Of a stretch of DNA of 64,000 nt, positions 41,065 to 61,570 are shown one piece after another; within the stretch, counting starts at the first letter, position 1, and every line of letters starts with the position of its first letter. A program made the position numbers and the translations under genes. Source of the DNA: Paenibacillus sp. (lineage in GTDB: Bacteria > Bacillota > Bacilli > Paenibacillales > YIM-B00363); contig NZ_JAPSKE010000004.1 in assembly GCF_031177825.1 (NCBI RefSeq), positions 248,001 through 312,000 of the forward strand, given 5' to 3'. The notes under the pieces are model-generated. The model was not told where the DNA came from and made no database searches. It worked only from the letters and a program-made list of their open reading frames with translations.

Positions 41065-42064
41065 TCGCGACTCCTCCTTGCCGTCTGACCATGAGAATCA
41101 AGAAACAGCTCCCGCCGAGCAGCGTCGTCCAGACCCCGACCGGAATTTCCGCCGGGTACAGCAGCAGCCGCGCAACCGCGTCCGCGGAGACGAGCAACGC
41201 GCCGCCGCACAGCATCGAAAACGGCAGCGTTAACCGGGCGTCGTTGGTTCCGAGCATCGATCTTGCGAGATGCGGGGCGAGCAGCGAGATAAACCCGATC
41301 GGACCGCACTGAGCCACGGTCACCCCTACGAATCCGGTACACAGCGCTAAGATCGCGCGACGCGACCGCTCGACGTTCACGCCGAGACCCGCGGCCACAT
41401 CGTCGCCAAGCTGCATGACATTCAAAGTTCGGAGGTAGAGGAACGCCATCGGCGCCATCGCTGCGAACCATGGCAGGGTGCGCTCGACATGCTCCCAGCT
41501 TCGATTGGCAAGCGAGCCGAGCAAGTATAAATAAAGCTGATTCACGTCGTTGCTCGTACCGAGCGCGATCAAGAGAATGAGCGTGCCGTTCAGGATGGCG
41601 GATACAGTCATGCCGATGAGAAGCATGCCCACCGCGCCGCGGCTGCCTCTTGCGGCCAGCAATACGCACACTCCCCCCGCCATTCCTCCCAGCAACGCGA
41701 ACAACGGCTGCGCATGCCAGGATACCGGAAGCTGCAGCACAGCGATCGCCCCCATCGCGAGGGACGCCCCGGACGATACGCCTAGCAGCTCAGGTCCCGC
41801 CAAGCGGTTGTTCATCGCGCCTTGCACTAGCGTACCTGACGCTCCGAGCATCGCGCCGATTAAGACGCCAAGCGCGGCCCGAGGCAGACGCATCTCCAAG
41901 ACGATCGTACGCGCGAGCGGTTCCCCCTCGTTCCGGAAGACGATGCCGAACAGCTCGCCCCACGTCAAGTTGGGGGTTCCTAAGGCAGCCTGCGCCGCCG
42001 ACGAAGCGAGAACGACGAGTATCAGCAAAATCGGCAGCAGTACGGATCGAACGCGAGGTCTCAT
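41057..42064 (-). CDS. FecCD/BtuC-family ABC permease (1)
   Basis: The 335-residue permease shows L-E-M-R-L-P-R-A-A-L-G-V, A-M-L-G-A-S-G-T-L-V-Q-G and G-F-I-S-L-L-A-P-H-L-A-R, the FecCD signatures, with about ten hydrophobic segments. It lies 10 bases after the binding-protein gene and overlaps the next permease gene. It would form a heterodimer with that protein. Confidence 0.9.
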   Translation of the reverse strand: MRPRVRSVLLPILLILVVLASSAAQAALGTPNLTWGELFGIVFRNEGEPLARTIVLEMRLPRAALGVLIGAMLGASGTLVQGAMNNRLAGPELLGVSSGASLAMGAIAVLQLPVSWHAQPLFALLGGMAGGVCVLLAARGSRGAVGMLLIGMTVSAILNGTLILLIALGTSNDVNQLYLYLLGSLANRSWEHVERTLPWFAAMAPMAFLYLRTLNVMQLGDDVAAGLGVNVERSRRAILALCTGFVGVTVAQCGPIGFISLLAPHLARSMLGTNDARLTLPFSMLCGGALLVSADAVARLLLYPAEIPVGVWTTLLGGSCFLILMVRRQGGVANG

Positions 42065-42074
42065 GTCAATTCCG

Positions 42075-43046
42075 TTAGGGAAGCTCAGGATACAGGAACG
42101 CCATCGCTTCGTCGACCATGATGCCGAGCGAACGCGTGCCGCGCCCGTCTCCCCAAATCGGGGACCGAACTTCCGCGACCTTCCCTTCCTGGACCGCTTT
42201 CAGTTCGCTCCATAGCGGAAGCTGCGACAATTGCTCCGACAGCTGTTTCGCCCCGGGTTGGAACGAATAACTTTCAACGAAGATCGCGTCCGGGTTTTCC
42301 GCCAACAGCTTTTCCAGCGAATACGGAATCGCGCCTTCCCCGAATGGATCTTCGGAAGGATCGTTCACCTTCCATGGGTACGCCGCGATTTCCCGTAACA
42401 CCGTGCCCCCGAGACCGCTGTCGGTCACGATCGCGAAATTCACGTCGCTGCCGTACATAATGAGCGCCTTCCGATCTTTCGGCGACTTGCGTTTCGCTTC
42501 TTCGAGCTTGGCGAGGAACGCGTCGGCGGACGCCTGCGCTTCTTTCGTCCGCCCGGTAACGCCGCCGACCGCCATAAGCAGCTCGACCGACTCGGAATAG
42601 CTGACGGGATTGACGAGCAGGACCGGGGCGATTCCGGATAAGCCCTCCCTTAGAGCGTCGTGCACGCCCTCCAATCCGATCACGAGATCCGGCTTCGCCG
42701 CGACGAGGTCCTCTACGTTCGGCTCGAAGAAGCTGCCGCCGATCGAAGCGAAGCTTCGTCCCTTCTCGCCGTAAAACTCCGGCTGCATGGCGATCGTCCG
42801 GACGCCGCTTTCCCCGATCGCGATCGGCTCCATGCCGAGCTCCGCAGTCAAATCGATGCAGAGCGAGACGACGCAGGCGATTCGCTCGACCGGCTTCGCG
42901 AACGTCAGCGCCTCTCCTGTATCGTCGACGATGGACAAGCTCCCGCGCGGCGGCTCGCTCTGTACGGCGACGCCGTTCCCGCAAGCGGAAAGAACAGCCG
43001 CCAGCACGGCGATGGTCACTCCGCTTAGAACCGTAAATCTCATCAT
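42075..43046 (-). CDS. Metal-chelate binding lipoprotein (FepB/BtuF-type)
   Basis: The 323-residue product has a lipoprotein signal (A-V-L-A-A-V-L-S-A-C, cysteine at about residue 22) and the two-lobed fold of class III binding proteins (V-E-R-I-A-C-V-V, V-E-D-L-V-A-A-K-P-D-L-V-I-G, L-A-E-N-P-D-A-I-F-V). GGAGG lies 7 bases before the ATG. It would capture the ligand for the two FecCD permeases. Zur control suggests a zinc chelate, but the ligand cannot be read from the sequence. Confidence 0.88.
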   Translation of the reverse strand: MMRFTVLSGVTIAVLAAVLSACGNGVAVQSEPPRGSLSIVDDTGEALTFAKPVERIACVVSLCIDLTAELGMEPIAIGESGVRTIAMQPEFYGEKGRSFASIGGSFFEPNVEDLVAAKPDLVIGLEGVHDALREGLSGIAPVLLVNPVSYSESVELLMAVGGVTGRTKEAQASADAFLAKLEEAKRKSPKDRKALIMYGSDVNFAIVTDSGLGGTVLREIAAYPWKVNDPSEDPFGEGAIPYSLEKLLAENPDAIFVESYSFQPGAKQLSEQLSQLPLWSELKAVQEGKVAEVRSPIWGDGRGTRSLGIMVDEAMAFLYPELP

Positions 43047-43086
43047 GGATCTACCTCCGTATGTATGGATTCAAATTCGATTTCCG

Positions 43087-44292
43087 TCATTCGACGACGG
43101 CCCACGCGGGCAGCGGGTCGGACAACGCGCTCCAGTCGGGCAGCGCCATCTCTTCGTCCGTCAGCAGGCAGTCGTCCAATCCGGCTTCGATCGCTTCTCG
43201 AACCATGTCGATGCCGATGAGTACGAGCTCGGTCTGTCGGTCGCCGTGAACGTCGTCCCAAGTCTCGAACAGTTCCGGTTGTTCCGAGCGGAGCGCAATC
43301 TGTTCTTCCGTAGGCAAGGAGGCGATCCAATGTCCGGACGGACCGAACTGAATGGACGGTCCCGCTTGACTGATCATCCCGGCGATGCCGTTGCGGCTGG
43401 CGAGCCAGACGATTCCCTTGGCCCGGACGACGTCTTCAGGCCATTCTTCCAACCATTGCAGCAATCGCTCCGGATGGAACGGCCTGCGTCTTCGATAGAC
43501 GATGGAGCCGATCCCGTACTCCTCCGTCTCCGGCGTATGCGCCGGTCGCTGAAGCTCCCGGATCCAACCTGCGGACCGACTGGCTTCTTCGAAGTCGAAC
43601 AGGCCCGTGTTCAGGATCGCCGACGGCGAAATTCGGCCTTTGACGGCTCGGATGACGCGGGCGGCGGGCTGCAGCGTACGGAGTACCTTCTCCAGTTGAT
43701 TCAGTTCCTCGTCTCCGACCAAATCGCACTTGTTCAAAATGAGCACGTCGCAAAATTCGATCTGATCGATCAACAAGTCTACGACCGATCGCGTGTCGTC
43801 TTCCCCCGCGGCTTGATTACGCTCCAATAAGCTGTCGCCCGAGGCGAAGTCGTGCCAGAATCGGTATGCGTCTACGACCGTTACCATGCAGTCGAGCTTG
43901 GCGAAGCGGGCTAGGTCGATGCCGGACTCTTCGTCCGCGTAGGAAAATGTCTGCGCGACCGGAACCGGCTCGCCGATCCCGGTCGATTCGATCAAAATAT
44001 AATCGAACCTGCCTTCCGTCGCGAGACGCTCGACCTCCCGGAGCAGATCGTCCCGCAAGGTGCAGCAGATGCAGCCGTTCGACATCTCGACCAGCTTCTC
44101 TTCGGTTCGCGACAACTGCGTCTCCCGGCCGACGAGAGCCGCGTCGATATTGACCTCGCTCATGTCGTTGACGATGACCGCCACCTTCAACCCCTCGCGG
44201 TTGTTCAATACATGATTTAGCAGCGTCGTCTTGCCCGAGCCCAAATAACCGCTTAACACGGTGACGGGAATGCGTTGTTCCTTCGGATTCAT
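43087..44292 (-). CDS. G3E (CobW-family) GTPase, YciC/ZagA-like zinc metallochaperone
   Basis: The 401-residue protein has a Walker A motif [10 protein letters not shown] (about residues 14-23), the C-x-C-C metal motif in G-C-I-C-C-T-L (C74, C76, C77), the guanine-specificity motif N-K-C-D, and a C-terminal CobW domain. Size and motifs match Bacillus YciC (ZagA), a GTPase that delivers zinc to client enzymes in starvation. It is the first gene of the minus-strand operon, directly behind a near-perfect Zur box. Between the GGGAGG site and the ATG lies TCGGGTATCCGA, which can fold into a small hairpin and shorten the 13-base spacing. Confidence 0.9.
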
Positions 44293-44680: not shown

Positions 44681-47600
44681 TTATTTTTCGAAGCCGATGT
44701 AGTCGTATTGGATTTCAGGATTCCATGCCATATCGTTGCCGACGGCGCGGTAGCCGATCTCGATCGACGTCACGGCGCTTCGACCGGCCCAACCGCTGAC
44801 GTCCGTCGCGATGCGATTCCAGCGATCCGCCTGCATCGCCTGCGTATGCATATGCGTCGTGCCGTCGGCGCCCGTTAAGACGACACGCGTCTCATACGTG
44901 GCGTTCGGAACGCCGCCGTACGAATCGATATGGTAAAAGAACGTATGCGCTTCGCTCATATCGATCGCCGTCTCCGGCGCAACCTTCGCCGTCTTCCATG
45001 AGGTCGCCGGGGCGACCGCGGATCTGGCGTTCAGCGCGTAGCTGCCGAGGATCGGCTTCGTCGGGCCGTTCGGGAACGTCTCCACGGTCCGGAGCCCGGC
45101 CAGATTGTCGACTGCCTCCCAGCCTTGCAAGCCGGTTTCGAAGTTGTGCAGCAGCTCGACGTTGCTCGGCACTTGGTCTTCCCCGTTCGGCTTCACTGCG
45201 CCGATCGTCTTCGTTACCGCCGTCTCCCGATATGTGAACGTCATCGTCACGTTCCCGCCGGCGGGCGGCGGCGCGTAGTCGACGACCGACACAAGGAACG
45301 TCTTCGATTCTCCGGGCAACACGCGGTTCACGTCCAAGGCCGATGTCGAGAAGGTCGCATGCTCGGACGTCACCGCGATTTCCCCCGACAGCTTCTTATC
45401 GTCGTAATTCGTAACGGTCACTTCGAGGTTCGAGCCGACCCCGAGCGGGTCTGCCAAGAGCCGCGCGGAGACGTCGAGGTTCGCGACGGATTCCCGCGTC
45501 TCGCCCTTCCGCTCGAACGACACGTCGTCGATGAGGAACGAGCCGTTCCAGTTCGTCGTCGCCGGCGAAGACATCCATACCTTGATTCGATCCACCGCGC
45601 CGATGCCGTCGAAGCCGCGGAAGTCGGCGGCGATCGATTGCCATTCGCCCGGGTTCGGCAAAGCTACGACCGCTTCCGCGCTCGTGGAACCGCTGTACAC
45701 TTTCACCTTCGCGTAGTGCGTCCGATCCGGCAGCGTTCCCGGCACCTTAAGCGCCAGCTTAAGCACCGGCGTATTCGAGAGATCGACCGGCGACGACAGT
45801 TGCAAGTCGGCGCCGCGCCACATTTTGGACAGCGCGCTGAACGTTACCCGCAAGGCGGACGCCCCTTCGTACGCGTCGCCCGCCGCGCTGGATACGCCGT
45901 TGCTGTTGTCGGCGAACGTCCAGCCGTCGGTGCCGTTCTCGAATGTAGAGATCCGAACCGCCTTCGGGTCATGGCCTTGCGACGGGCCGTTCAACTCGGC
46001 CGGCGCGTACGCCGGGGCGACGCGGTCGTTCAGCTTCGCCGGATCGAAGCCCGGAATCGCGGCTTCCCACGAGTCGATGCCGATCACGTCGAGCGCGAAG
46101 CTCGTCGCCTCGAGCGACTTCGCCGTATCGATATCGCGGAACACGTGATAGGCCAATTTCTTCCGATCGGGCGTCGCCGTCTCGCCCGGCAAATTCGTCC
46201 AGAGGCCCAGATTCAGACCGCCTTCGAAGGCATGGTCGACGTGACGGTGCAGAATGAACGAATCGATGCCGTCAAGAAATTCGACGATGTAGTAGGCGTA
46301 CGCGTAAGCGGCCGCTTGAATGTTCTGCGCCTGCTCGGAATTATCGAGGCTGTGAAAGCCCTGCTCCGACAAGATGATACGCCGCATCTCGCCTTCGTAT
46401 AAGTACTCCGGCTGCCGCAGGTAATCCACAAGGACGGACAAGTTCTTGAACGTTATGCGCTGCGTATTGAAATCGAAAGTCGCCGTGGCGTCCTCCCAGA
46501 ACTTCGGATTGAACAAGTTTTCCGGATACGGATGGAACGCCATGTTCCACGGAATGTCGCCGTTCGTCTTCAGGTGCTCGGTCAGCAGGTCGACGATGTT
46601 CTTGTTGTCGTACTTCCAGAGCGAATCCGAAGGCAGATTTTCGTCCCAGAAGTGATCCAGGGAGACGTATGCGCGCGCCTTGTCGTAATGGCTTCGGATG
46701 ATCGTATCGGTCAGCCGCAGCGTACGCGCGTAGTCCTCTACGTATTCGTGAATGAGCTTCGGTCCCATGTTGTTCCAAACCTTGTTTTGGCCGATCTCGT
46801 TGCCGACGATATAGTTCACCGCGCGTCCGTACGCTTCGTCCTCGCGGGTATAACGCTCCGCCAAGAAGCTCGTGATCGCGCCGTAATACCCGATGCCCTC
46901 CGCCGTCTTCGTATTGACGGCGTAGACGGTGCCGCCCGGCTCCGAATCCGGATGGATCAGAATATGGTTCGGCGTATTCGGATCGAGATTCCGGTACATG
47001 ATCAAGATGAGCGAAACGATATTGTCGTTGTCGGACAAGCTCTTGATTTGCAGATCGAGATTTTCGACGACGTTTTTCTTGAAGTAATACGTCTTGCCTT
47101 GGAATTCGTACGGAATCGTATTGGCCGGCTGACTATCGGTTAAGTACAGCATCTGATCGTAAGCGACGTTCAGGGCGGCGTGGCTGATGCCGAGCTCCTC
47201 GGCGTCGTCCGTATACTGCACCTGCAGCCCCTTCTTGCTCTTCGCCTCCGGGAACGGATACGTATTCTCGGCGAGTGTCTGCGGATTCGCGATGTACTGG
47301 GGCGCATCGACCCAGAGCGTCGCGTCGTCCGTCTCCAGCGCGACGGCGAATTTCGAGTACAGGCGGCTGCGGCTATCGTCCAGCAGCGGAAACGCGAAGG
47401 AGAAACTCGCCGCCGCCGGTTGTTCGCCCAGCTTCACGCGCTCCGACGCCGGATCGAACGGGTCCGAATAGGTAGGCAGCTCGTAGAGCGTTAGTCGAGC
47501 TTCTGGATCGATCTCGACCGAGGCGGACGTGATCGAACCCGCGACGACGACGCTGCCGTCTCCGCCGATGACCGGCCGCGCCAGCTCGCCGATCGTCTCC

Positions 47601-48688
47601 GGCGGCAACGGCGGCAAAATCTTGAACTCCGCTTCGTCCAATTGAATGACGCCCCCCTCTCCTTCCTCCAGCACCGGTTGGATGCGGAACGCCTGCAGCG
47701 TGCCGCTCCAGTTCAGCTTATCGGACAGATTGAAGTCGTACGCCTTCATCCCGGACGACGGATCCACATCGAACGTCTTCGACTTCTCGTCGTCCCAGAC
47801 CGGATCCTCCTCGGTCGTCCACGACACCTTCAACCGTTCCGCGGGCGTTCCGTTCGCGAGCGTCAACGAGATCGCGTTGCGCTCCGCGATCGACAGCGCG
47901 AACGATCCCGACGTCAGGGCATCGCCCGCCCCGGCGACCGTCCACTGCAGCGCCCCCGCGTCGACCGCCACCGCGCCTTGCGCCGCCGTGAACCCTTCGG
48001 GATCGCCCGGCTTCGAGAATCGCATATCGAGCACGTTCGTCGCCGAGATCTGGTCGATCTGGAACCGGCCGTCCCAATAATCGTATCCGGGCGCTCCCGG
48101 CGGCACTCCTTCGAGATCGAAGTTTTGCATGAACGAAATTTCCATCTTGGAGATCGCTCCGCGGCCCGACCAATTCGAGACGTCCACGAATACCGTTCTC
48201 CAGCTGTCCGGCTTAATATGAGCGATCGACTCGTTCACGCCGTCCGCGCCGTGAAGCCGGATGCGCAGCACGTATTCTACCGGCTGCCAGCCCCAGCTGT
48301 TGGCCGCGAATGCCAAGTATCGGGAGTCGGACAGGTCGAGCGGCGTCGCGAAGTCGCGGTAAATCGTGCGCCACGCGTACACCTTCACTCGCTCCGGCTG
48401 CTGCTCGAGCGCGCCGGCCCCTTCGTAGACGCTGCCGGGACCGTTCAAGATACCTGTCACGAAGTTCACGCTCTTCGTATTTTCGCCGGCGGACCAGGTC
48501 GCCACGTCGGCGGCCGTATTGAAGTCGTTAATGATTTTCGCGGGATACACCGCCGTGCCGTTCGACACGTTCGGAGAGGGCGTAAGCCCCGGATCGTAGG
48601 GCGCCGCGACGGCGAAGGACGCTAAGAAGGCATGGCAAACCAACAGCCAGGCGATACACCCGGCCGTCCACTTTGCAGTTCGGTTCAT
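44681..48688 (-). CDS. Secreted multidomain glycan enzyme with DUF5722 (GH-A-like barrel)
   Basis: The product (about 1335 residues) has a signal peptide (C-I-A-W-L-L-V-C-H-A-F-L-A-S-F-A-V-A-A) and a galactose-binding-like module (about 50-230). A DUF5722 domain at about 475-880 and two further beta-sandwich modules (about 915-1060 and 1180-1335) follow. In the DUF5722 part the pair N-E-I-G-Q and S-E-Q-G-F-H-S at the ends of predicted strands resembles the acid/base and nucleophile glutamates of clan GH-A hydrolases. It would cut a polysaccharide outside the cell and feed the operon B importer. GGGAGG precedes both a TTG (48689-48691) and the ATG used here. It is the last gene of operon B. 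Confidence 0.8.
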   Translation of the reverse strand: MNRTAKWTAGCIAWLLVCHAFLASFAVAAPYDPGLTPSPNVSNGTAVYPAKIINDFNTAADVATWSAGENTKSVNFVTGILNGPGSVYEGAGALEQQPERVKVYAWRTIYRDFATPLDLSDSRYLAFAANSWGWQPVEYVLRIRLHGADGVNESIAHIKPDSWRTVFVDVSNWSGRGAISKMEISFMQNFDLEGVPPGAPGYDYWDGRFQIDQISATNVLDMRFSKPGDPEGFTAAQGAVAVDAGALQWTVAGAGDALTSGSFALSIAERNAISLTLANGTPAERLKVSWTTEEDPVWDDEKSKTFDVDPSSGMKAYDFNLSDKLNWSGTLQAFRIQPVLEEGEGGVIQLDEAEFKILPPLPPETIGELARPVIGGDGSVVVAGSITSASVEIDPEARLTLYELPTYSDPFDPASERVKLGEQPAAASFSFAFPLLDDSRSRLYSKFAVALETDDATLWVDAPQYIANPQTLAENTYPFPEAKSKKGLQVQYTDDAEELGISHAALNVAYDQMLYLTDSQPANTIPYEFQGKTYYFKKNVVENLDLQIKSLSDNDNIVSLILIMYRNLDPNTPNHILIHPDSEPGGTVYAVNTKTAEGIGYYGAITSFLAERYTREDEAYGRAVNYIVGNEIGQNKVWNNMGPKLIHEYVEDYARTLRLTDTIIRSHYDKARAYVSLDHFWDENLPSDSLWKYDNKNIVDLLTEHLKTNGDIPWNMAFHPYPENLFNPKFWEDATATFDFNTQRITFKNLSVLVDYLRQPEYLYEGEMRRIILSEQGFHSLDNSEQAQNIQAAAYAYAYYIVEFLDGIDSFILHRHVDHAFEGGLNLGLWTNLPGETATPDRKKLAYHVFRDIDTAKSLEATSFALDVIGIDSWEAAIPGFDPAKLNDRVAPAYAPAELNGPSQGHDPKAVRISTFENGTDGWTFADNSNGVSSAAGDAYEGASALRVTFSALSKMWRGADLQLSSPVDLSNTPVLKLALKVPGTLPDRTHYAKVKVYSGSTSAEAVVALPNPGEWQSIAADFRGFDGIGAVDRIKVWMSSPATTNWNGSFLIDDVSFERKGETRESVANLDVSARLLADPLGVGSNLEVTVTNYDDKKLSGEIAVTSEHATFSTSALDVNRVLPGESKTFLVSVVDYAPPPAGGNVTMTFTYRETAVTKTIGAVKPNGEDQVPSNVELLHNFETGLQGWEAVDNLAGLRTVETFPNGPTKPILGSYALNARSAVAPATSWKTAKVAPETAIDMSEAHTFFYHIDSYGGVPNATYETRVVLTGADGTTHMHTQAMQADRWNRIATDVSGWAGRSAVTSIEIGYRAVGNDMAWNPEIQYDYIGFEK

Positions 48689-48715
48689 CAATTACGAATC
48701 CTCCCTTGGGTTCAT

Positions 48716-49591
48716 CTACATTTTCAAAGCGCCTTGGGTCATCCCTTGGATGTAATATTTCATGCCGAAGGCGAAAATGAGCACCAACGGCACCGACGAC
48801 AACGCGTAAGCCGCGAACTGCACCCCCATATTCGTAATGCCGAATTGATTTTCGAATACGGTCAGCCCGACGCCGATCACTTGGATGCTGCTGTCTCGAA
48901 TCGTTAGCAGCGGCCAAATGTAGTCGTTATAGACGCCGACCGATTGCATGATGAACAACGTAGCCAAGATCGGCACCGACAACGGCAGGACGATTCTCGT
49001 AAACACGGTGACTTCATGCGCCCCGTCGATTCTCGCCGCTTCGAACAGCTCGTTCGGCACGCCGGACATGAAGCTTCGGCACAGGAACGTTCCGAAAATT
49101 TGCCCGCCTGCGGCGGCCGCGACGATGATGACCCACGGCGTGTTCGTTAAGCCGAGGCTGTTGTACAGCACGTAGGACGGAATTAACGTGAGCACGCCGG
49201 GAATCATCATCATGGCGAGCATCATTATGAACAACGTCTCCTTGCCGGGGAACGTCTTCTTGGCGAAGATGTACCCCGACACGGAGGAGAGCAAACAGAC
49301 GAGCGTACTGCCCGCGACCGCGTAGACGACCGTGTTGACGACGTAACGCCAGATCGCTCCGAACGCTTCGCCGTAGTTGCCCCATTGCGGCGGCGCGGGC
49401 AGCGCCCAGAAGTTGCCCAAGATTTGCGCGTTGCTCTTCAGCGAGCTGAACAGCATGAAGAAAATCGGAACGAGCGTTAAGAAAACTAACAACGACAAGA
49501 TCGTATAGGATGCGATCTGCGCCGCGGACAGGTCGGAAGACCGGCTCCGCTGAACGATCGTCGACAGCTTGGCGGTTTTCACGGAATGCAT
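48716..49591 (-). CDS. Carbohydrate ABC permease (MalG type)
   Basis: The 291-residue permease has six hydrophobic segments and the EAA loop E-A-A-R-I-D-G-A-H-E near residue 190, followed by I-V-L-P-L, and ends in G-A-L-K-M. It pairs with the propeller-permease fusion encoded 15 bases upstream. GGGAGG lies before the ATG. No ATPase is present in the operon. Confidence 0.93.
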   Translation of the reverse strand: MHSVKTAKLSTIVQRSRSSDLSAAQIASYTILSLLVFLTLVPIFFMLFSSLKSNAQILGNFWALPAPPQWGNYGEAFGAIWRYVVNTVVYAVAGSTLVCLLSSVSGYIFAKKTFPGKETLFIMMLAMMMIPGVLTLIPSYVLYNSLGLTNTPWVIIVAAAAGGQIFGTFLCRSFMSGVPNELFEAARIDGAHEVTVFTRIVLPLSVPILATLFIMQSVGVYNDYIWPLLTIRDSSIQVIGVGLTVFENQFGITNMGVQFAAYALSSVPLVLIFAFGMKYYIQGMTQGALKM

Positions 49592-49606: not shown

Positions 49607-51529
49607 TTAATCGTTCGCGGTTTTGATCAGCTTCATATTGACGATCGTGATCGCCAGAATGACGGCGAACATGGCGACGCCGAGCGCGGACGCGTACCCG
49701 AGATCGTTGAAGATCGTCGCGGCGTAATACATCTGAAGCGCCGGGACGTACGTCGAATCCATCGGTCCGCCGCCGGTGACGATCAAGATGCCGCCGAAAT
49801 CTTGAATGATGCCGATCAGCGCCAGAATGACGAGCAGCTTGAATTGCCCGGACAAGAGCGGCAGATGGATCGAGCGGATGATGCGCCAGAGGCTGGCGCC
49901 GTCGATCTTCGCGGACTCTACGAGCTCCTCCGGAATCGCTAGCAGTCCCGCGTAAAACACGAGCAGCTGGAGGATGCCGATGAACGGGAAGCCGATGAAG
50001 ATGACCGCCCAGAGCGCCGTGTTCGGGTCGCCCAACCATGCGTGTCCCGGCAGGCCGACCGCCTCCAACACGTTGTTGATGAGGCCGACGTTAGGGTCGT
50101 ACAGGTTTTGCCAGATCAGCAGTCCGGCGACCGCCGGTATGACCATGGACGCGACGAACGCGGTGCGGTACCAGTACTGGGCCTTCTTGCTGCGCAGATG
50201 ATAGATGAGCTCCGCCGCGATCAAGGGAGGCAGCAGCGACTTGACGATGCCCGTGACGATCAAGAGCGCCAGGTTGCCGAGCCCCTTCGTGACGTACGGA
50301 TCGTTCGCCATACGCTCGAAGTTGTCGAGACCGACGAATACCGTCCGGCCGCCCGGATTCCAGTCGTACAAGGAGTGGAACAATCCGGAAAACGCCGGAT
50401 AATACAAGAAGGCGAACACAAGCGCGAAGCTCGGCGCAAGCGCGAGATAGATATACTTGGAACGCCACATCTCGACGAAAACGCCGAGCTTCTGCCGACG
50501 CTTCATCCACAGCAGCCCGAAGGCGACGATCGCAGCGCCGGCCGCGGCGGCCGCGATCCACGAGAACAGCCGGATCGTCGCGCCGCTCTTCGCCGAGGCG
50601 ACGATCTCCCCGACGTCGTAAGCGAACAGCGCGCCGTTGCCCGTCCCCGCGTACAGCATCGTCGCGTCCGAATTGAACTTCACTTGCCGGCCCGCGCCGT
50701 CGACCCGAGCCGTCCAGAGCGGTTTCCCGTCGGCCGCGAAGACGTAGAAGTTGCCCAAGAAGTCCGAAGCCGCGACATATCCGCCGTCCGCCGACACGTC
50801 CACGTCCGTGACGACGTCCTTCACGGAATAGACCGTCGTCTGATTCCCCTCCCCGTCGAAGGCGACGGCCTCGCTCCGGGACGTGCCGACGACGACGGCG
50901 CCGTCGTTCGAAACGCCGATCGCTTCGATCGTCCCGGATACCCCGACCTTGCGCAATAACGCGCCTTCCGCGTCCAGCACATACGCGTACTGGTCCGGCG
51001 CGCCGACCGCCACGAACCGCCCGTCCGGCGACACCTGCACATGCGACGGCGTAATGCCGATGTCCGCCTCGCGAACCGTCTCGCCCGAGGCGACGTCGAA
51101 GAACGCCACCGTCGATCGCCCTTGCGCGATATAGACGGCGACCGCGCCGTCCTTCGACGCGGCGACGCTCTTCACCTGCCGCTTCACGTCCAGCTCCCAG
51201 ATCGGGTTACCCTCTGCGTCAACCTTGTAGAGACGCCGGTCGTCGGACGAGACGAGCAAGCTGCCGTCCGTCAAGAACGCCACGCCGGTCACGACGTTGC
51301 GCGTCTCGAACGCGAACTGCTCGGCGCCGTCGGCTTGGAAGGAATACGCTTTCGCGCCGTAGCTGCCGACCGCGATTCTCGTTCCGTCCTCGGATAACGA
51401 CAAAGATGTAATATTCTCCGGTTCCGCCAGCGACCACCCCCCGTTCCCGTGCGCCGCTCCCGTAAACAAGAACGAAGCGCAGATCGCGAGGCAGCCCGCC
51501 AACGCTGCGATTTTGCCGCGTACCGACAT
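49607..51529 (-). CDS. Fusion of an extracytoplasmic beta-propeller with a MalF-type ABC permease
   Basis: One uninterrupted 640-residue frame contains a signal peptide (A-L-A-G-C-L-A-I-C-A-S-F-L-F), then a WD40/PQQ-like beta-propeller (about residues 30-315). Its blades carry D-G-T-R-I-A-V-G, L-T-D-G-S-L-L-V-S, S-P-D-G-R-F-V-A-V-G and S-A-D-G-G-Y-V-A-A. A membrane helix (about 318-342) and a short basic linker lead to a complete MalF-like permease (about 355-640) with the EAA loop E-S-A-K-I-D-G-A-S-L. The propeller would sit outside the membrane on top of the channel. GGGGGAG lies 5 bases before the ATG. Both halves are in one frame with no internal start of good quality, so this is a true fusion. 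It follows the binding protein and precedes the partner permease. Confidence 0.88.
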   Translation of the reverse strand: MSVRGKIAALAGCLAICASFLFTGAAHGNGGWSLAEPENITSLSLSEDGTRIAVGSYGAKAYSFQADGAEQFAFETRNVVTGVAFLTDGSLLVSSDDRRLYKVDAEGNPIWELDVKRQVKSVAASKDGAVAVYIAQGRSTVAFFDVASGETVREADIGITPSHVQVSPDGRFVAVGAPDQYAYVLDAEGALLRKVGVSGTIEAIGVSNDGAVVVGTSRSEAVAFDGEGNQTTVYSVKDVVTDVDVSADGGYVAASDFLGNFYVFAADGKPLWTARVDGAGRQVKFNSDATMLYAGTGNGALFAYDVGEIVASAKSGATIRLFSWIAAAAAGAAIVAFGLLWMKRRQKLGVFVEMWRSKYIYLALAPSFALVFAFLYYPAFSGLFHSLYDWNPGGRTVFVGLDNFERMANDPYVTKGLGNLALLIVTGIVKSLLPPLIAAELIYHLRSKKAQYWYRTAFVASMVIPAVAGLLIWQNLYDPNVGLINNVLEAVGLPGHAWLGDPNTALWAVIFIGFPFIGILQLLVFYAGLLAIPEELVESAKIDGASLWRIIRSIHLPLLSGQFKLLVILALIGIIQDFGGILIVTGGGPMDSTYVPALQMYYAATIFNDLGYASALGVAMFAVILAITIVNMKLIKTAND

Positions 51530-51615: not shown

Positions 51616-53292
51616 CTAGCTGCGCTCCGGCGGCCTGCGTTCCGGATGCTCCAGATCGCTCCGCTCGAGCTTCTTCTCCTTCAGCGCCGGCTCCAAATAT
51701 TTGTCGACGATGCCTTGATATTCGTTCAAGTATTGCTCGGTCGTCACTTGGCCGCCGAAATACCGCTGCACGAGACCGACCCAGTCCTGCACCGACGGCT
51801 GGTGATCCCACACGCCGCGAGCCAAGGAGTTCGACGCGCTCGGGAACCCTTCCGTGTTGCCGATCGGCTCGAAGTTGGCGAACGCCGCCGCCATTTCGTC
51901 CGGCAGCACGATGTCCTTCAGCGCCGGGGAGCCCGAGAGCGCCGCGTCGTCGCTGTTTTGGATCGCGGTCAAGTACACCTTATACCCTTCCGGGCTCGTC
52001 AGGTACATCATGAAATCCATGTCCAGTTCCGTCTGCTTCGCATCCTTCGCGACGAAGCTGTAGAAGCCGATCGGAATGTGGATCGTCCGCGCGGGCGCCA
52101 TAACCTCGGGACCTTCCATGGACGGCATGTTGAAGAATCCGTACTCGAACGGCTTCACGCCGCCTTGCGCGCCGGTCTTCTCTTCGCTCGCGAAGTCCTT
52201 CGGCAGCTGCCAGAACGAACCCGGCGTGCTCATCATCGTCGCCGCCTTGCCGGTCAGGAACAAGCTGTAAGCCTGCTCGGCGTTGACGCCGAAAAATCCG
52301 TCCGGCGTATACTGGAACAATGCCTTTAAGTTTTCCATGAACGCCGACCACTTCGGATTGTCCGCCACCTTGAACGGACCTTCCTTGTCCTGAATCGCTT
52401 TCCATACGCGAAGATCGTTCTTCGTGACCTTGCTGTTGGAATCGTTATACGGATCGTTCGGATCGAACGTCCAGCTGTCGTCCACTTCCGGCAGATAGGT
52501 GTAATCGTCAGGCTGCGAGCGGACGATGTTGATCGAATCCCGCATGTACTGGTCCGCATAGATTCGAACGAGCCAGCCGGCTTCGCCGCTCCACATCGAA
52601 TTGGAGTTGCCGGCGAGCGCGAGCGGCGTGTACCCCGCCGCCTTAATTTTCTCGAACGCCGCGATCAGCTCGTTGAACGTCTTCGGCGCTTCGGATATGC
52701 CCACCGCGTTAAAGATTTCTTTGTTGTACAGCCACACGATCTGGACGGACTCGAAGTTCAACATGTAGAGATGATCGTCCGCGCCGATCCCGGAATAATT
52801 GATGCCCATCGCGTCTAAATCCAGACTCTCTTTCCACTTCTTGCCCGTATACGGATTATCCTTCTCGAAGAACGGGTACATGTCGACGAATTTCTGGCTC
52901 TCGTGAAGAGAGGCGACTTCGTTGGAGACGACGAAGTCGACGTCCGGCGTGCCGGCCGCGAATTGCGCCGTCAGCCATTCCCGATAGCCCTCTAGCGGTT
53001 TATTGTCGACGACGACGTTCACCTTCGGGTGCTTCGCCATATAGCCTTGCGCGACGGCGTTCCAGACGGCCGCGGACGCGTTCGGAAGCGAGATGCGAAT
53101 CGTCCCTTCCAATTCCGGAGCCGACGCGTCCGGCGCCGGCGTCTCCGTCGTCGGCTTCGGCTCGGTTTGTTGCGCGGGCTGCTCCGCAGGCGGTTCCTCG
53201 GCTGCGTCCCCGCCGGATTTCGTGCAGGCCGCGAGGAGCGAGCCAGACAACATCAGGGTCAGAAGCAACGAGATTGATTTCTTTAGCCGCAT
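51616..53292 (-). CDS. Extracellular solute-binding lipoprotein of the operon B importer
   Basis: The 558-residue product has a lipoprotein signal (L-L-L-T-L-M-L-S-G-S-L-L-A-A-C), a long P/E/A-rich linker (to about residue 60) and a type-1 sugar-binding protein fold (A-Q-G-Y-M-A-K-H-P-K-V-N-V, Y-N-K-E-I-F-N-A-V-G, L-T-G-K-A-A-T-M-M). The ATG at 53290-53292 follows AAGGAGAGG with 7 bases spacing. It is the first gene of operon B, behind a promoter bracketed by GntR-type operators and with a cre site in its leader. The ligand should be the glycan released by the DUF5722 enzyme. Confidence 0.92.
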   Translation of the reverse strand: MRLKKSISLLLTLMLSGSLLAACTKSGGDAAEEPPAEQPAQQTEPKPTTETPAPDASAPELEGTIRISLPNASAAVWNAVAQGYMAKHPKVNVVVDNKPLEGYREWLTAQFAAGTPDVDFVVSNEVASLHESQKFVDMYPFFEKDNPYTGKKWKESLDLDAMGINYSGIGADDHLYMLNFESVQIVWLYNKEIFNAVGISEAPKTFNELIAAFEKIKAAGYTPLALAGNSNSMWSGEAGWLVRIYADQYMRDSINIVRSQPDDYTYLPEVDDSWTFDPNDPYNDSNSKVTKNDLRVWKAIQDKEGPFKVADNPKWSAFMENLKALFQYTPDGFFGVNAEQAYSLFLTGKAATMMSTPGSFWQLPKDFASEEKTGAQGGVKPFEYGFFNMPSMEGPEVMAPARTIHIPIGFYSFVAKDAKQTELDMDFMMYLTSPEGYKVYLTAIQNSDDAALSGSPALKDIVLPDEMAAAFANFEPIGNTEGFPSASNSLARGVWDHQPSVQDWVGLVQRYFGGQVTTEQYLNEYQGIVDKYLEPALKEKKLERSDLEHPERRPPERS

Positions 53293-53532: not shown

Positions 53533-54654
53533 TCATGCGTATGCATCTAGCTCCGTCGTGCTGTCGCGCACGATCAGCCTCGGGACGATCTCTTCCTTCA
53601 GCAGCCGCCCCTCCTCGTGCTGCTTCCATTCGAAAATGAGCATCTCCGCGGCTCTGCGTCCGACGGACAGCGTATTTTGATTGATCGTCGTCAAACTCGG
53701 CTCCAAATAAGCGCTGATCAACGTATCGTCGTATCCGATCACGCTGATGTCCTCGGGAATGCGAAGTCCGCCGTCCTTGATCGCCTGCAGCGCGCCGAAC
53801 GCCTTGAAGTCGCTCGTCACGAACATCGCCGTCGGCGGCTCCGGCAGCGAGAGCAGCTTCCTCGCTCCTGCGTAGCCCATTTCCGCCGATTCCTCGTCCA
53901 TCTCGATGACGGAGACGAGATCCGGGTCGAAGTCGACGTTATATTGCGACAGCGCCAGCCGATAGCCCTGCAGCCGCAGCGAAAACTCCTGATTCATCTC
54001 GAGCGCCGACTTCCCCGTCAGCACGATGCCGATGCGGCGATGACCGAGAGACAGCAGATGCTGCGTCGCCAAGAAGCCGCCCGTCAAGTTATCGACGATG
54101 ACGTACGGAATTTGGAGCTGCGGGTAATAGAAATGGACGGTGACGAGCTTGCGCACCTCTTCCTTCCAGCGGCGCAGCAAATCCGGATTCGTGTTCGCGT
54201 TCGGCAGCAGAACGAAGCCCGTCTTCTCGTCTTTCGCGGGAAGCGCGTTCTTACTGCCGACGTCCAAGAGATGAAACCGGATGCCGTGTTCCTCGCACAC
54301 CTCTTGGATGCCGGCGGCGAGATCCCCGTAGAATCGATGGCTGAACGTCCCGAGCGGAATCGAGGAATGCGCGAGATAGATGCGCTCAAGCGCGATCGTC
54401 TTGTCCTTCGGCTTCCCGTCCGATTCCAGGCGAATGAACGTGCCCCTTCCGCGCACGCGATAAATATATCCTTCGTTCGCAAGCTCCGTCAGCGCCCGGC
54501 GCGTCGTAATTTCGCTGGTATTGTATAATTTTGCGAATTCGACCTGCGTCGGCAGCGGTTCGTTCAGATCGAACGCCCCCGCCGTGATCTTTCGCTTCAA
54601 ATCGTCGACGATCGTTTGATACATCGGGGTTTTCTCAAGTTTCAATGATAGCAC
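53533..54654 (-). CDS. GntR-HTH / LacI-type sugar-sensing repressor of operon B
   Basis: The 373-residue product has a GntR winged helix (about residues 5-75: [28 protein letters not shown]) and a LacI-type ligand domain from about 90 ([28 protein letters not shown]). It starts with GTG, AAGGAG 6 bases upstream. A perfect AAGTATACTT palindrome lies before it and two related sites bracket the operon B promoter, so it likely represses itself and operon B until a sugar is present. Confidence 0.9.
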
Positions 54655-54771: not shown

Positions 54772-56454
54772 TCATGCGTATACGATCTCGACGCCGTCCG
54801 GGGCTTCGACCTTCGTCTCCACCGCGCCGTCCGCGCGCCGCCGGTGGGCGACGCGCACGGGACCGAACGGCGTCGGGAAGCTGCCTTCCGCCCATTCCAA
54901 ATCCCCCAGCTGCGGCCGAATCGCAAGCTTGCGGCAGCCATGCTCGGCGATGCGGACGCCGAGCACGTACTCGGACAGCCAGGCCGTCGGGCCGGACGCC
55001 CAGCCGTGGCATAGGCTGTGCCGATAGCCTTCATAACAGTAATCTCCATACGTTCCATGGACATCGACCTTCCCGGGCGACGGCAGCTCGTCGATGCGCG
55101 AACCGTTTTCCATCCAAGACAGGTCGAAATCTTCCCAGAACGTCGTCGCCCCGAGCTCCAGCATGCCGCCCCAATATCGTCGGATGACGTCGAGCGCTCC
55201 CGCGATATCGCCCGCTTCGCCCCGCGCCTTCAGCACGTAGTACCCAAGGAACGTCGAGATGCCTCGGGGGCCGTCTACCGCCAGGACCCGCTCGTTCGCT
55301 TCGACGGGATCGACCAGCCCGGAGAGCGCCATCAGAGCGGCCGCCTGCTTGCTGCCGCCGTGCTCCGGTACGCGCCGGCGCAGCGTTCGCTCCGCCTGCC
55401 GGCAATCGCGCTCCGCCTCCGGCGCCCCCAACAAGCCGCACAGCTCCGCGCCGGCCTGCAGCGCCAAGACGAACAGCGCATGGACGCCCGCTTCCACGCC
55501 CGCTCGGTTGGGGGACGTCGGCCAATCCAGGAACGGGCTCGGCGCGTCGTGCGTGCCGTCTTCCCGCACATGGCCGATGAGCGCCGCCAATAAGCCGAGC
55601 AGGTACGGCTTCTGCTCCATCAAATAATTCAGGTCGCCGGATTGACGGTACCAATCGCGGTGAATCAGGATCCACCACATCGAATAACTGGGGAATCCGT
55701 TCATCCACCCGGGCAGCGGGGTTTCGTCGCGGCTGAAGTCCAGGCTGCGCGGCACGACCTCGGGATTGCCGAACACCGCTTGGATCGTCGACGCCTCCGG
55801 ATGCATATCTCCGACCCATACCAAGCGGTCCCGCTTCACGCCGTCCCATAAATATTCCTGCATATTCAAGTGCACGGTGTACGCCCCAACCTCCCAGATT
55901 CGCGTCAGCAGCGCGTCGCTGCAGCGGAAGCTCCCCGGCTGCTCGAGCTCCCGAATCAACAGGAACGCCCGCACGCTCTTGATCCGCACGCTCTCGTCGG
56001 GGTCCGCCAGATCGATCCGCACGAAGCGGAAGCCGGTATTGCCGATTTCCGTCGTGCCGAGGAAGCTCGACACTTCGACGACGGAATCGCGGACCGCATG
56101 ATCGTTCGTCGCGGTGGAGGACGGGCCGCGCTCGCTCATCGCTTCCGCCGCCGATTCGCCGAACCGCACGCGCAGTTTCGTCGTCTTCGCGCCGGTGCCG
56201 GCCGTCCAGAGCGTAATCTGCACGCCGCCCTGCAGCTCCGTGCCGAAATCGAGCAGCAGACCGGCCTGCCCGCCCCGGTTGCTCAGGATGCAGGCTTCGC
56301 CGCCGCCGAGCGTCGCCTGTCCGTCGCGGTTCCGAAGCAGCGCTTCGGCCGCTAGAACCTCGACCCCTTCGCCCTCCGCTTCCCACAAGACGCGGGTCGG
56401 CGTAACGTAATACCGCGTTCTGGGATCTTTCGTCTTCGCGATGCGTTCCAACAT
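54772..56454 (-). CDS. GH78-like alpha-L-rhamnosidase
   Basis: The 560-residue cytosolic protein has a beta-sandwich N-terminus (to about residue 190) and a six-hairpin (alpha/alpha) barrel with the GH78 motifs D-G-V-K-R-D-R-L-V-W-V-G-D-M-H-P-E and T-T-F-W-E-D-F-D, which hold the catalytic acid and base residues. A C-terminal beta-domain with C-H-G-W-A-S-G-P follows. At 560 residues it is shorter than most GH78 enzymes, which usually carry extra N-terminal modules. GGGAGG lies 7 bases before the ATG. It is the last gene of operon C and should release L-rhamnose for the oxidative enzymes encoded upstream. Confidence 0.85.
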   Translation of the reverse strand: MLERIAKTKDPRTRYYVTPTRVLWEAEGEGVEVLAAEALLRNRDGQATLGGGEACILSNRGGQAGLLLDFGTELQGGVQITLWTAGTGAKTTKLRVRFGESAAEAMSERGPSSTATNDHAVRDSVVEVSSFLGTTEIGNTGFRFVRIDLADPDESVRIKSVRAFLLIRELEQPGSFRCSDALLTRIWEVGAYTVHLNMQEYLWDGVKRDRLVWVGDMHPEASTIQAVFGNPEVVPRSLDFSRDETPLPGWMNGFPSYSMWWILIHRDWYRQSGDLNYLMEQKPYLLGLLAALIGHVREDGTHDAPSPFLDWPTSPNRAGVEAGVHALFVLALQAGAELCGLLGAPEAERDCRQAERTLRRRVPEHGGSKQAAALMALSGLVDPVEANERVLAVDGPRGISTFLGYYVLKARGEAGDIAGALDVIRRYWGGMLELGATTFWEDFDLSWMENGSRIDELPSPGKVDVHGTYGDYCYEGYRHSLCHGWASGPTAWLSEYVLGVRIAEHGCRKLAIRPQLGDLEWAEGSFPTPFGPVRVAHRRRADGAVETKVEAPDGVEIVYA

Positions 56455-56475: not shown

Positions 56476-57231
56476 TTACATGACGAGCGCGCCGCCGTCG
56501 ACGGCGAGCGCCGCGCCGGTCACCCACTCGCTGTCCCCGGAGGCGAGAAAGACGACCGCCTTCCCGATATCCTCCGGGCTTCCGATTCTGCCCGCGGGCA
56601 CTCCGCCGCTCTTCGCCCTCGGCGGCGGGACGCCGTTCGCGAACTGGTGGCGGTTCATGTCCGTCGGGACGCCGCCGCACAAAATGGCGTTCGTTCGAAT
56701 GCCGTAAGGGCCGAGCGCGACCGCCATGGACGACGTCAGCGAATTCAAACCGCCCTTGCTCGCCGCATAGTGCACTTGCTCCGGACCGCCGCGGAAAGCG
56801 GTTACCGTGCTGATGTGAATGATGGAGCCGCCGCCCTGACGCCGCATATGGCGACCGGCCGCCTGGGAGCAGAAGAACGCGCCGGCGAGATTGACGTCGA
56901 TCGTCCGCCGCCACGTCGCCTCGTCGATCGCGAAGAAATCGGAGAAGGGACAGATCCCGGCGTTATTCACCAGGATGTCGATCCTCCCGAACGCTTCCGC
57001 CACCGCGTCCATCATGCCGTCGACCTCGCCCTTCTTCGAGACGTCGGCCCGGAACGCCCGCGCCGGAACGCCCGCCCCGCGCAGTCGTTCGACGACGGCG
57101 TTCGCCTCTTGCTCTTGATCCGTATAATTGACCGCGACGGCCGCCCCCGCCGCGGCCAGCTCTTCGCAGATGCCGGCGCCGATGCCTCGGCTTCCTCCGG
57201 TAACGACGGCGACCTTGCCCTCAAGCTTCAT
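56476..57231 (-). CDS. SDR-family dehydrogenase, likely sugar (L-rhamnose) 1-dehydrogenase
   Basis: The 251-residue classical SDR has T-G-G-S-R-G-I-G, an N-Y-T-D after strand 2, N-N-A-G, a catalytic serine region I-H-I-S-T-V and the Y-A-A-S-K motif. The overall sequence style, beginning V-A-V-V-T-G-G-S-R-G-I-G and A-V-N-Y, resembles bacterial L-rhamnose 1-dehydrogenases. With a rhamnosidase on one side and a rhamnonate-dehydratase-like gene upstream, it is the candidate first enzyme of non-phosphorylative rhamnose oxidation. Family is certain, substrate inferred. Confidence 0.85.
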   Translation of the reverse strand: MKLEGKVAVVTGGSRGIGAGICEELAAAGAAVAVNYTDQEQEANAVVERLRGAGVPARAFRADVSKKGEVDGMMDAVAEAFGRIDILVNNAGICPFSDFFAIDEATWRRTIDVNLAGAFFCSQAAGRHMRRQGGGSIIHISTVTAFRGGPEQVHYAASKGGLNSLTSSMAVALGPYGIRTNAILCGGVPTDMNRHQFANGVPPPRAKSGGVPAGRIGSPEDIGKAVVFLASGDSEWVTGAALAVDGGALVM

Positions 57232-57252
57232 CTGGTCCGCCCCCTCGCTCGC

Positions 57253-57456
57253 TTACGTCTGTAGCAATATTTTCCCCGGCGGACAACGTCCGGAGACGAG
57301 CTCCCGGAAAGCTTCCGCCCCGGCCGACAACGGCCGAAGCTCGGTCCACTCGCGCTCGCTGACGTTCGAGTCGGCCAGCAGCTGGAGCGCGTCTCGGAAA
57401 TCCGCATCCGCGTAACCGAACGAACCCTTCGCGTCCACTTCGGAGCGGGCCCTCAC
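57253..57456 (-). pseudogene. C-terminal remnant of an MDR alcohol dehydrogenase
   Basis: A 67-codon frame starts with a GTG that overlaps the MBL-gene stop by four bases. It reads V-D-A-K-G-S-F-G-Y-A-D-A-D-F-R-D-A-L-Q-L-L ... A-E-A-F-R-E-L-V-S-G ... G-K-I-L-L-Q-T, the usual last 60-65 residues of zinc-type alcohol dehydrogenases. The catalytic and Rossmann parts are missing and the MBL gene occupies their place, so it is a leftover of a deletion or insertion. It may still be translated by coupling. Confidence 0.7.
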
Positions 57457-58232
57457 GCGATAATCCCGTCCGGATAGCGATCTAAGATTCGCTTGTCGTG
57501 GCCGGGGAGCAGCACGTCCCCTTCCCGCTTCAAACGCCGAAGCGCCTCGACCGACTCGTACAAGCTGACGCCGAGGCCGACCGGATGCTCCGTCTCCAGG
57601 TTGTCGTACAAATACGCGACGTCTCCGGTCAAGACGACGGCACCCTTCGCGGTTCGAATCTTCACGGCTTGCGAGCAGCGCGTATGCCCTCCGGTCCAGA
57701 GGACGTCGATGCCCGGCGCGATCGTCTCCTCGTCCGCCGCCAGCCGGAGCTGCGCTTTCATCCGCGTCGCCATATGCGCGAGCACGTCCTTCGGGAAGAC
57801 GTCGAACACGGGATGGGTCGGAGACAAGGCCGCCTCCCACCCCTTTCGATTGACGACGATGTCGGCGTTCTCGAACAGCTGTACGTTCGCGATATGATCG
57901 TAATGCAGATGCGTCAGGATCACGAGGTCGATGTCTCCCGGCCGCAATCCGTGCTTGCGAAGCTGCGACAGCGTATCCTCGCCGTCGCCGACGGGGAAGC
58001 CCGCTTCGCTCTTGCGAGCGCTCTCCGTCAGCCGCCCCGGGTAGTCGCCGCCCATGCCGGTATCGACGAGCGCGTTCCGTCCGCCGCCTTGCACGAGCCA
58101 GAAGTAGCAGTTGACGTCCACCGTGCGGCCGAAGCCCTTCATGTAGAGGAAGACCGGCTCGGGCGCCGTATGGGTGGCCGTCCGCAAGCATCTCACGCGG
58201 TACTCGGGCGTCTTCGCCGCGTCGTTGTTCAT
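57453..58232 (-). CDS. MBL-fold hydrolase, possible sugar lactonase
   Basis: The 259-residue protein has the metallo-beta-lactamase metal motif T-H-L-H-Y-D-H, a later G-G-H-T, T-G-D-V-A-Y and a final P-G-H-D, in the layout of AiiA/AttM-type lactonases. It would bind two metal ions and open a lactone ring. Placed between a sugar dehydrogenase and a sugar-acid dehydratase, opening of an aldonolactone is a better guess than quorum quenching. Its start has AGAGGGGGG upstream, 16 bases after the dehydratase stop. Confidence 0.82.
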   Translation of the reverse strand: MNNDAAKTPEYRVRCLRTATHTAPEPVFLYMKGFGRTVDVNCYFWLVQGGGRNALVDTGMGGDYPGRLTESARKSEAGFPVGDGEDTLSQLRKHGLRPGDIDLVILTHLHYDHIANVQLFENADIVVNRKGWEAALSPTHPVFDVFPKDVLAHMATRMKAQLRLAADEETIAPGIDVLWTGGHTRCSQAVKIRTAKGAVVLTGDVAYLYDNLETEHPVGLGVSLYESVEALRRLKREGDVLLPGHDKRILDRYPDGIIA

Positions 58233-58248
58233 CGTTCGCGCCCCCCTC

Positions 58249-59448
58249 TTACCCCTCGAGCTCGATCAGGTGATCGCGCGCGTCCGGGCGGAATTCGATG
58301 CCGGCGCCCATGCCTTGCGGCAGCTCGAACCCCCCGTCCTTCGGCGCCGGAATGCCCGCCAACACAGGGTCTTGATTCGGCAGATCGGCCCCGTTGATAT
58401 AAGCGAACTCCGCCATCGGCATATTCGGATCCGCGAAAATGAGATGGAGCGCCCAAGGCTGCAGTCCGCCCGCGTGCGGAATGACGGGAATGTGCTTCGC
58501 GGACGCCATCGCGCTAATTTTTCGCGCCTCCGTGATGCCGCCGCACCAACAGACGTCCGGCTGCAAAATGTCCGCGGCCCGGGCGTCCAGCAGCTGTTGG
58601 AACCCGTACCGGGTATATTCGTGCTCGCCCGTGGCGATCGCGGACGAATTCACCTTGCGATGGACGATTCCGTAGCCTTCGTAGTCGTCGGGCGGCAACG
58701 ATTCTTCGATCCACTTCACGCGGTACGGCGCGACGAGCTCCGTCATGCGCACCGTGTAGTCGACGTTCCATGCCATGTAACAGTCCAACATGATTTCCTT
58801 CTCCGGGCCGAGCGCCTCCCTCGCGCGCGCGACCAGCTCGGCGTTTTTGCGCATTCCCTCGAAGCCGGAGGCGGGACCGTACGGCATCGCCAGCTTCTGC
58901 CCGAGGAAGCCGCGATCCTTCGTCTTCTCGAACTCGTTCCCGGTGCAATAGGCCGGCACTCGATCCTTGACCGGCCCGCCGAGCGTTCGATACAGCGGCT
59001 CTTGCCGCGCCTTCGCGATCAAGTCCCAGAGCGCTAGATCGACCGCGGAGATCGCCATGATCGGAGCGCCCTTCCGTCCGTACGGCAGCGTCGCTTTAAA
59101 CATAATGTCCCACAATCGTTCGACTTGGAATGGGCTCTGCCCGAGCAAAAACCGGCTTAGATGCTGCTTGATGATCGGAGCCGTCGCCATGCCCGACGCC
59201 GTCTCGCCGATCCCGACGAGCCCTTCGTCGGTCTCGAGCGCAACGATCGTGCGGCCGCCCATGCCGGTCCAAGACGATCGCCGGTCGAAATATTCCGGGT
59301 ACATGGACATCGGGTTGGCGATGACCGTCTCGGACAGCCACGAGCCCTTCTTCGCGGCGGCGGGGCATCCTGCGCCCGCGGCGGCTTCCGGAGCGTTCGC
59401 CGCGGGCTTCCTGCCCGTGACGTACACCTTCACGTCGGTGATTTTCAT
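58249..59448 (-). CDS. Enolase-superfamily dehydratase, L-rhamnonate dehydratase-like
   Basis: The 399-residue protein shares with E. coli L-rhamnonate dehydratase (RhmD) the stretches A-N-P-M-S-M-Y, K-W-I-E-E-S-L-P-P-D-D-Y-E-G-Y, D-I-L-Q-P-D-V-C-W-C-G-G-I-T and I-P-H-A-G-G. Metal-binding acids are in M-L-D-C-Y, W-I-E-E and T-G-E-H-E, and the general base histidine in P-H-A. The N-terminal loop that in RhmD has a substrate-binding histidine reads S-W-L-S-E-T-V here, so the exact substrate may differ. The ATG overlaps the previous stop by four bases. It would make a 2-keto-3-deoxy acid. Confidence 0.85.
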   Translation of the reverse strand: MKITDVKVYVTGRKPAANAPEAAAGAGCPAAAKKGSWLSETVIANPMSMYPEYFDRRSSWTGMGGRTIVALETDEGLVGIGETASGMATAPIIKQHLSRFLLGQSPFQVERLWDIMFKATLPYGRKGAPIMAISAVDLALWDLIAKARQEPLYRTLGGPVKDRVPAYCTGNEFEKTKDRGFLGQKLAMPYGPASGFEGMRKNAELVARAREALGPEKEIMLDCYMAWNVDYTVRMTELVAPYRVKWIEESLPPDDYEGYGIVHRKVNSSAIATGEHEYTRYGFQQLLDARAADILQPDVCWCGGITEARKISAMASAKHIPVIPHAGGLQPWALHLIFADPNMPMAEFAYINGADLPNQDPVLAGIPAPKDGGFELPQGMGAGIEFRPDARDHLIELEG

Positions 59449-61554: not shown

Positions 61555-61570
61555 TGGTAAGCGCTGTCAA
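61555..61570. promoter_or_regulatory. Possible cre site inside operon C
   Basis: TTGACAGCGCTTACCA (minus strand) resembles the cre consensus with two mismatches and overlaps the stop codon of the GH71/99-like gene. Confidence 0.3.

Follow-up and report, generated by a model that had tools for sequence, protein, structure and literature searches.

The stretch of DNA analysed here, referred to as the window, comprises 64,000 nucleotides from a Paenibacillus-like soil bacterium. On its reverse strand, at 49607..51529, lies the gene of a fusion protein that forms one MalF-type half of an importer's membrane channel. It reads as a single open reading frame of 640 amino acids (51529..49607, reverse strand), encoding in order a signal helix, a predicted seven-bladed propeller, an extra membrane helix (TM0) and a MalF-type (CUT1) permease. 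The ATG is preceded by the Shine-Dalgarno-like sequence GAGGGGGAG, and no such site was seen upstream of the internal Met342, at the propeller/permease junction.

The signal peptide (residues 1–29; 51443..51529) was assigned by alignment and hydropathy. It carries an A-x-G|N pattern that resembles a cleavage site and is kept across the genus in the alignment, and it is presumably cleaved. The WD40/PQQ-type propeller occupies residues 30–306 (50612..51442) according to AF2, Foldseek and Pfam, followed by a linker helix and TM0 at residues 307–350 (50480..50611; AF2 and hydropathy), with a K/R-rich cytoplasmic side. The hydropathy profile places the signal helix at 7–25 and TM0 at 321–339, followed by four K/R residues and then by the six permease helices. 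The permease itself (residues 351–640; 49610..50479) matches PF00528 in Pfam, and MalF (2r6g) and SugA (8ja7) by phmmer. Within this one protein, Pfam recognizes PQQ_2, WD40 and other propeller families at 28–306 and BPD_transp_1 (PF00528) at 439–630 (E 2.3e-15). Sequence matches in the PDB divide in the same way, the N-terminal part pointing to designed and natural propellers and the C-terminal part to MalF, SugA and AlgM1. An EAA-like loop, ELVESAKIDGA...HLPLL, is found at 535–559 and is mostly invariant among relatives. With its BPD_transp_1 domain, six core helices and EAA-like loop, the C-terminal half is a CUT1/MalF-type ABC importer permease.

A sequence-only reading of the window had proposed a signal peptide, a propeller, a membrane helix and a complete MalF-type permease in one frame, and this is borne out by the open reading frame, Pfam, hydropathy and AF2. 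The layout of signal peptide, propeller and TM0 would place the propeller outside the cell, which supports the extracytoplasmic location suggested in that reading.

Operon and probable cargo

A strong Shine-Dalgarno sequence just after the fusion gene introduces the second, MalG-type permease (48716..49591, reverse strand; PF00528), which shares the operon with the fusion and with a lipoprotein solute-binding protein (SBP; SBP_bac_1) at 51616..53292 (reverse strand). The start of the latter was taken as the ATG at 53292, after AAAAGGAGAGG. A GntR-headed regulator with a LacI-type sugar-binding domain (53533..54654, reverse strand) is a conserved neighbour. In lineage A, to which the window belongs, the genes usually follow one another as regulator, SBP, fusion, second permease and then glycosidases, which are GH78-like, GH106 or DUF5722 proteins. 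In the window, a secreted DUF5722 protein of 1336 amino acids with CBM-like domains, a probable glycoside hydrolase by Pfam, is encoded at 44681..48691 (reverse strand). No MalK-type ATPase gene was seen beside the operon, and five OB_MalK matches are located elsewhere in the genome.

On the other side of the regulator, also on the reverse strand, are genes for a GH78-like alpha-L-rhamnosidase-type protein (54772..56454), a short-chain dehydrogenase/reductase (SDR; 56476..57231) whose best NCBIfam match, below the cut-off, is L-rhamnose 1-dehydrogenase, a metallo-beta-lactamase-fold protein (57453..58232) that may act as a lactonase of a rhamnose pathway, and an enolase-superfamily protein (58249..59430, approximate start). 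The best match of the last is L-rhamnonate dehydratase, at 332 bits against a cut-off of 393. A second GH78-like protein is encoded among the further genes of the window. The cargo in this lineage is probably an L-rhamnose-containing oligosaccharide, given the rhamnosidases and the best matches to rhamnose dehydrogenase and rhamnonate dehydratase.

Several other observations concern these neighbours. The SDR, metallo-beta-lactamase-fold and enolase-superfamily dehydratase genes are consecutive (56476-59430, reverse strand) and resemble a non-phosphorylating L-rhamnose pathway. In related species, the DUF5722 protein recurrently adjoins rhamnosidase genes and the fusion; it probably represents an undescribed glycoside hydrolase family, and no mention of DUF5722 was found in the open-access literature searched. 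A family of 550–590 amino acids ('RYVGLFYFLWLGQHGTEGPFDNT'), which may be a new type of glycosidase, also adjoins rhamnosidases (61567-63200 on the reverse strand of the window, L042:1274-3049 and L014:1969-3663), and a Pfam search with its L042 member gave no match. A 691-aa protein in the rhamnose gene group (59445-61520, reverse strand) has no Pfam or NCBIfam match. Downstream of the operon, at 41057-44292 (reverse strand), a FecCD-type permease, an iron-siderophore-type binding protein and a CobW-type GTPase form an unrelated metal-uptake group.

Distribution of the fusion and of the binding-protein tail

At least 28 copies of the fusion were found, in 26 species and five deep lineages, one of them outside the order. 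Among 395 Paenibacillales genomes, 20 have clear orthologues, with frames of 641–690 amino acids except in genome G207, where the copy (L056) is broken by frameshifts and several adjacent genes are likewise split. Identity over the fusion is 97, 87 and 74% within the genus and 72% in Paenibacillus arenilitoris, while the propeller retains 36–61% in further genera. The binding proteins led to another seven divergent copies in five genomes, and one copy is present in G714, a genome from outside the order. Two genomes carry two fused importers each (L082 and L083 in G202; L086 and L087 in G225). Beyond the phylum, coverage consisted of a plasmid collection, none of whose records spans 80% of the fusion, and a narrow pattern scan of genome contigs.

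In a maximum-likelihood tree of the permease halves, all 24 fused rows fall on one side of a branch with weak support (52/53). The unfused L085, L090 and L091 form a separate deep branch adjoining the fused rows, and six other unfused permeases lie outside. A single gain of the fusion is the simplest reading of this tree, on a weak supporting branch. A profile search found no separate propeller gene adjoining six unfused permeases (L059 and L061–L065). Other candidate fusions were rejected. Of four long open frames close to permeases of this genome (C20, C37, C17 and C4), three proved to be unrelated or non-coding read-through and one an ordinary long MalF, and the weak propeller matches L092–L101 are not accompanied by a permease match in their frame.

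The sequence-only reading had described the binding protein as a normal one, not replaced by the propeller. A separate SBP gene is indeed still present, but its product is long and ends in a Pro/Arg-rich C-terminal tail, ...DLEHPERRPPER, as is characteristic of the fused systems. In the window this tail reads ERSDLEHPERRPPERS, its last 16 residues being encoded at 51619..51666 (reverse strand). The tail is found in the SBPs of all 28 fused systems and in none of the 16 other SBPs in the loci compared, which include those of the nine closest unfused permeases and generic ones from the same genome. Beside the fusions it generally takes the form [L/I][E/D][H/T/N]P[E/D][R/K]xP, with a looser version in the L084/L060 lineage (ALDTVSKNPAK, ALDDPSRDPTM). 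Four fused tails (TPESRPPERK twice, TPEKKSPERK and TPEKKQPERK) were added to the tally by eye, because the strict text pattern missed the TPESRPPERK and TPEKKxPERK groups. In genome G189, a tailed fused pair coexists with a tailless unfused one.

In the alignment, the SBPs that accompany the nearest unfused permeases end just short of the tail. The tail lies beyond the folded end of the solved SBP 4g68, which stops about 28 positions short of the end of the family profile. The idea that the tail is better conserved than the SBP body was rejected, its conservation across lineages (0.28–0.30) being about the body median (0.31). A structure model of the SBP, built from few sequences, has a pLDDT of 37. 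Fusion and binding protein also travel together: the 20 genomes with a clear fusion are exactly those, among the 395 Paenibacillales genomes, that carry this SBP at >957 bits, and five additional genomes have divergent fusions next to SBPs that are themselves divergent members of the family. A single origin of both fusion and tail, on one weakly supported branch, is possible, and the 28 cases are therefore not independent.

The enzymes beside the fusion vary by lineage: other fused lineages have a sulfatase (L084), GHL6 proteins (L088, L089) or a DUF4838 surface protein (L086) as neighbours, so the propeller does not appear to be tied to one glycan. Two proteins without a Pfam match, L060:11654-14575 (973 aa) and L084:12743-14965 (740 aa), adjoin divergent fusions and are candidate enzymes for other glycans.

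Predicted fold and conservation of the propeller

AF2 predicts 28 strands arranged as seven four-stranded blades at residues 30–306, with strand 30–33 closing blade 7. In this run, which used three sequences only, pLDDT is about 80–93 across most of residues 40–310 (about 90 for the propeller) and below 50 in the permease half. The nearest folds found by Foldseek are seven-bladed WD40 scaffolds, for example TLE1 (1gxr) and WDR61 (3ow8), which bind proteins or peptides; TM-scores by target are mostly 0.75–0.89 against solved seven-bladed WD40-type propellers. By its seven four-stranded blades and N-terminal strand closure, the modelled domain is a seven-bladed WD40-type propeller. This agrees with the seven-blade-like domain first suspected, and the contrary outcome, an N-terminal part that does not fold as a propeller, did not materialize. 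A PQQ-dependent quinoprotein enzyme was ruled out: the domain has seven blades, against the eight required, and has no invariant catalytic acid.

Most of the propeller positions best kept between lineages are glycines in turns. The lineages have no aromatic or polar cluster in common apart from D97/R98/Y101 of blade 2, and since D97 is replaced by Ser in L089, not even this acid is invariant. No overall conservation bias was detected on the top face (p = 0.46). Values of dN/dS are 0.08–0.32 for the propeller and 0.02–0.11 for the permease, indicating purifying selection on the propeller and on both sides of the junction. The strand order in the AF2 model has the signal helix and TM0 both leaving from the bottom rim, so the top face would be expected to point away from the membrane.

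No description of a propeller–permease fusion was found in the open-access literature searched, although subscription papers or annotation under generic names could still cover it, and no NCBIfam model covers the fusion. The system put forward as undescribed thus keeps that status within the literature searched: each part is of a known kind, and the combination is apparently undescribed yet conserved.

Possible roles of the propeller and related systems

The earlier proposals for the propeller were binding or trimming a glycan, docking the binding protein and sensing transport. Docking is now the best supported, because the tail and the propeller occur together, both persist while the enzymes change (GH78/DUF5722, sulfatase, GHL6, DUF4838) and no catalytic constellation is kept. 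With roughly even chances, judging from these sequence comparisons, the propeller is an extracytoplasmic docking platform for the importer's own SBP, which it would hold by the tail. In such a CUT1-type ABC sugar importer, the MalF-type subunit would have gained an N-terminal seven-bladed propeller, the chain running from the signal helix through a propeller folded outside the cell to TM0 and the six-helix permease. The propeller would capture the lipid-anchored SBP by its Pro/Arg-rich tail and keep the cognate SBP beside its own channel, among many look-alike importers sharing few ATPases; in the window's lineage an L-rhamnose-containing oligosaccharide would be imported. The architecture, its conservation, the predicted fold, the co-occurrence of tail and propeller and the operon context are observed, while tail binding, propeller orientation, benefit and cargo are proposed components of the model. 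Most interactions of WD40 propellers take place on the top face, and that of TLE1 binds WRPW and FxIxxIL motifs (PMC3419727), which makes docking plausible by analogy. The WD40-type fold and the precedent of E. coli MalF, whose P2 domain touches the binding protein (PMC3150292), also speak for it. A co-occurrence that may go back to one evolutionary event, the absence of conservation bias on the top face and a tail no better conserved than the SBP median count against it as weak points.

Among the other explanations, the propeller could be a non-catalytic glycan-binding module that gathers the ends of oligosaccharides or polysaccharides at the channel entrance and helps to load the SBP. Propeller folds in other proteins bind sugars, and this one is probably extracellular and encoded in a glycan-utilisation operon. 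However, the propeller stays while the enzymes of the operon, and with them probably the cargo, vary between lineages; together with the lack of a common aromatic/polar cluster beyond D97/R98/Y101 and a tail left unexplained, this makes such a module rather unlikely. A trimming enzyme for the incoming glycan fares far worse and is very unlikely: some glycosidases and lyases are propellers, but here turn glycines dominate the best-kept positions, no catalytic set is invariant across the fusions (D97 being Ser in L089) and the best structural matches are WD40 scaffolds.

The presence of DUF5722 and other enzymes directly downstream at many loci, and the general use of WD40-type propellers as scaffolds, would fit the docking of a different extracellular partner, such as secreted glycosidases or a cell-wall component, coupling cutting to uptake. 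This is improbable, as no one enzyme family accompanies every fusion and only the genes of the permeases and of the tailed SBP stay constant as partners from lineage to lineage. Still less probable is a sensor or gating domain signalling the extracellular state to the permease. The continuous helix predicted from the propeller into TM0 (H306–344) could pass on movement, but most of it falls where the model has low confidence, neither a signalling domain nor a partner was seen, and the tail would again go unexplained. An error of sequencing or assembly joining two genes, raised beforehand as the outcome that would undo the finding, can be practically dismissed: no supporting point was found, single fused frames of 634–690 amino acids occur in independent genomes of several genera, and low dN/dS marks purifying selection on both flanks of the junction.

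For docking of the SBP by its tail, the wider implication would be a new mode of recruitment in ABC importers, in which a permease-borne propeller acts as receptor for a C-terminal address tag on the cognate SBP and gives pairing fidelity among many similar sugar importers. Based on the same comparisons, this is conceivable, at somewhat less than even chances. Paenibacillus-like bacteria possess many look-alike sugar importers and few shared ATPases, and how each SBP is matched to its channel is not obvious. With 138 permease matches against five MalK-type ATPase matches in this genome, pairing fidelity could be worth its cost. If true, a receptor domain on the permease and an address tail on the SBP would be a simple answer, and also a portable tag system for transport engineering. 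More generally, core permeases of ABC importers can acquire large extracellular domains and retain them across deep lineages.

Groucho/TLE1-type WD40 proteins (1gxr) have a similar seven-bladed fold, and the top face of TLE1 binds short peptide motifs (PMC3419727); their biology is unrelated, and peptide binding, known for TLE1, is only proposed for this propeller. E. coli MalFGK2-E is similar in that its MalF, too, bears an additional extracytoplasmic domain, P2, which contacts the binding protein (PMC3150292). Unlike P2, a loop insertion (residues 91–271) of another fold, the domain described here lies at the N-terminus, is predicted to fold as a seven-bladed propeller and has a signal helix and TM0 of its own. 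A P2-type insertion was ruled out, since the extra domain precedes TM0 and does not lie between core helices. As in Gram-positive CUT1 importers with shared MsmX-type ATPases, the SBP, two permeases, a regulator and glycosidases are encoded side by side, with no ATPase gene between regulator and enzymes. However, the MalF-type subunits of those importers have about 300 amino acids and lack a propeller, and among the systems compared here the unfused ones have SBPs with no tail. Finally, importers of the GlnPQ and OpuA type have binding domains fused to the permease, which holds the binding protein by the channel. In the present system, in contrast, the SBP is a separate lipoprotein with its own gene (51616-53292), and the domain fused to the permease is a propeller.
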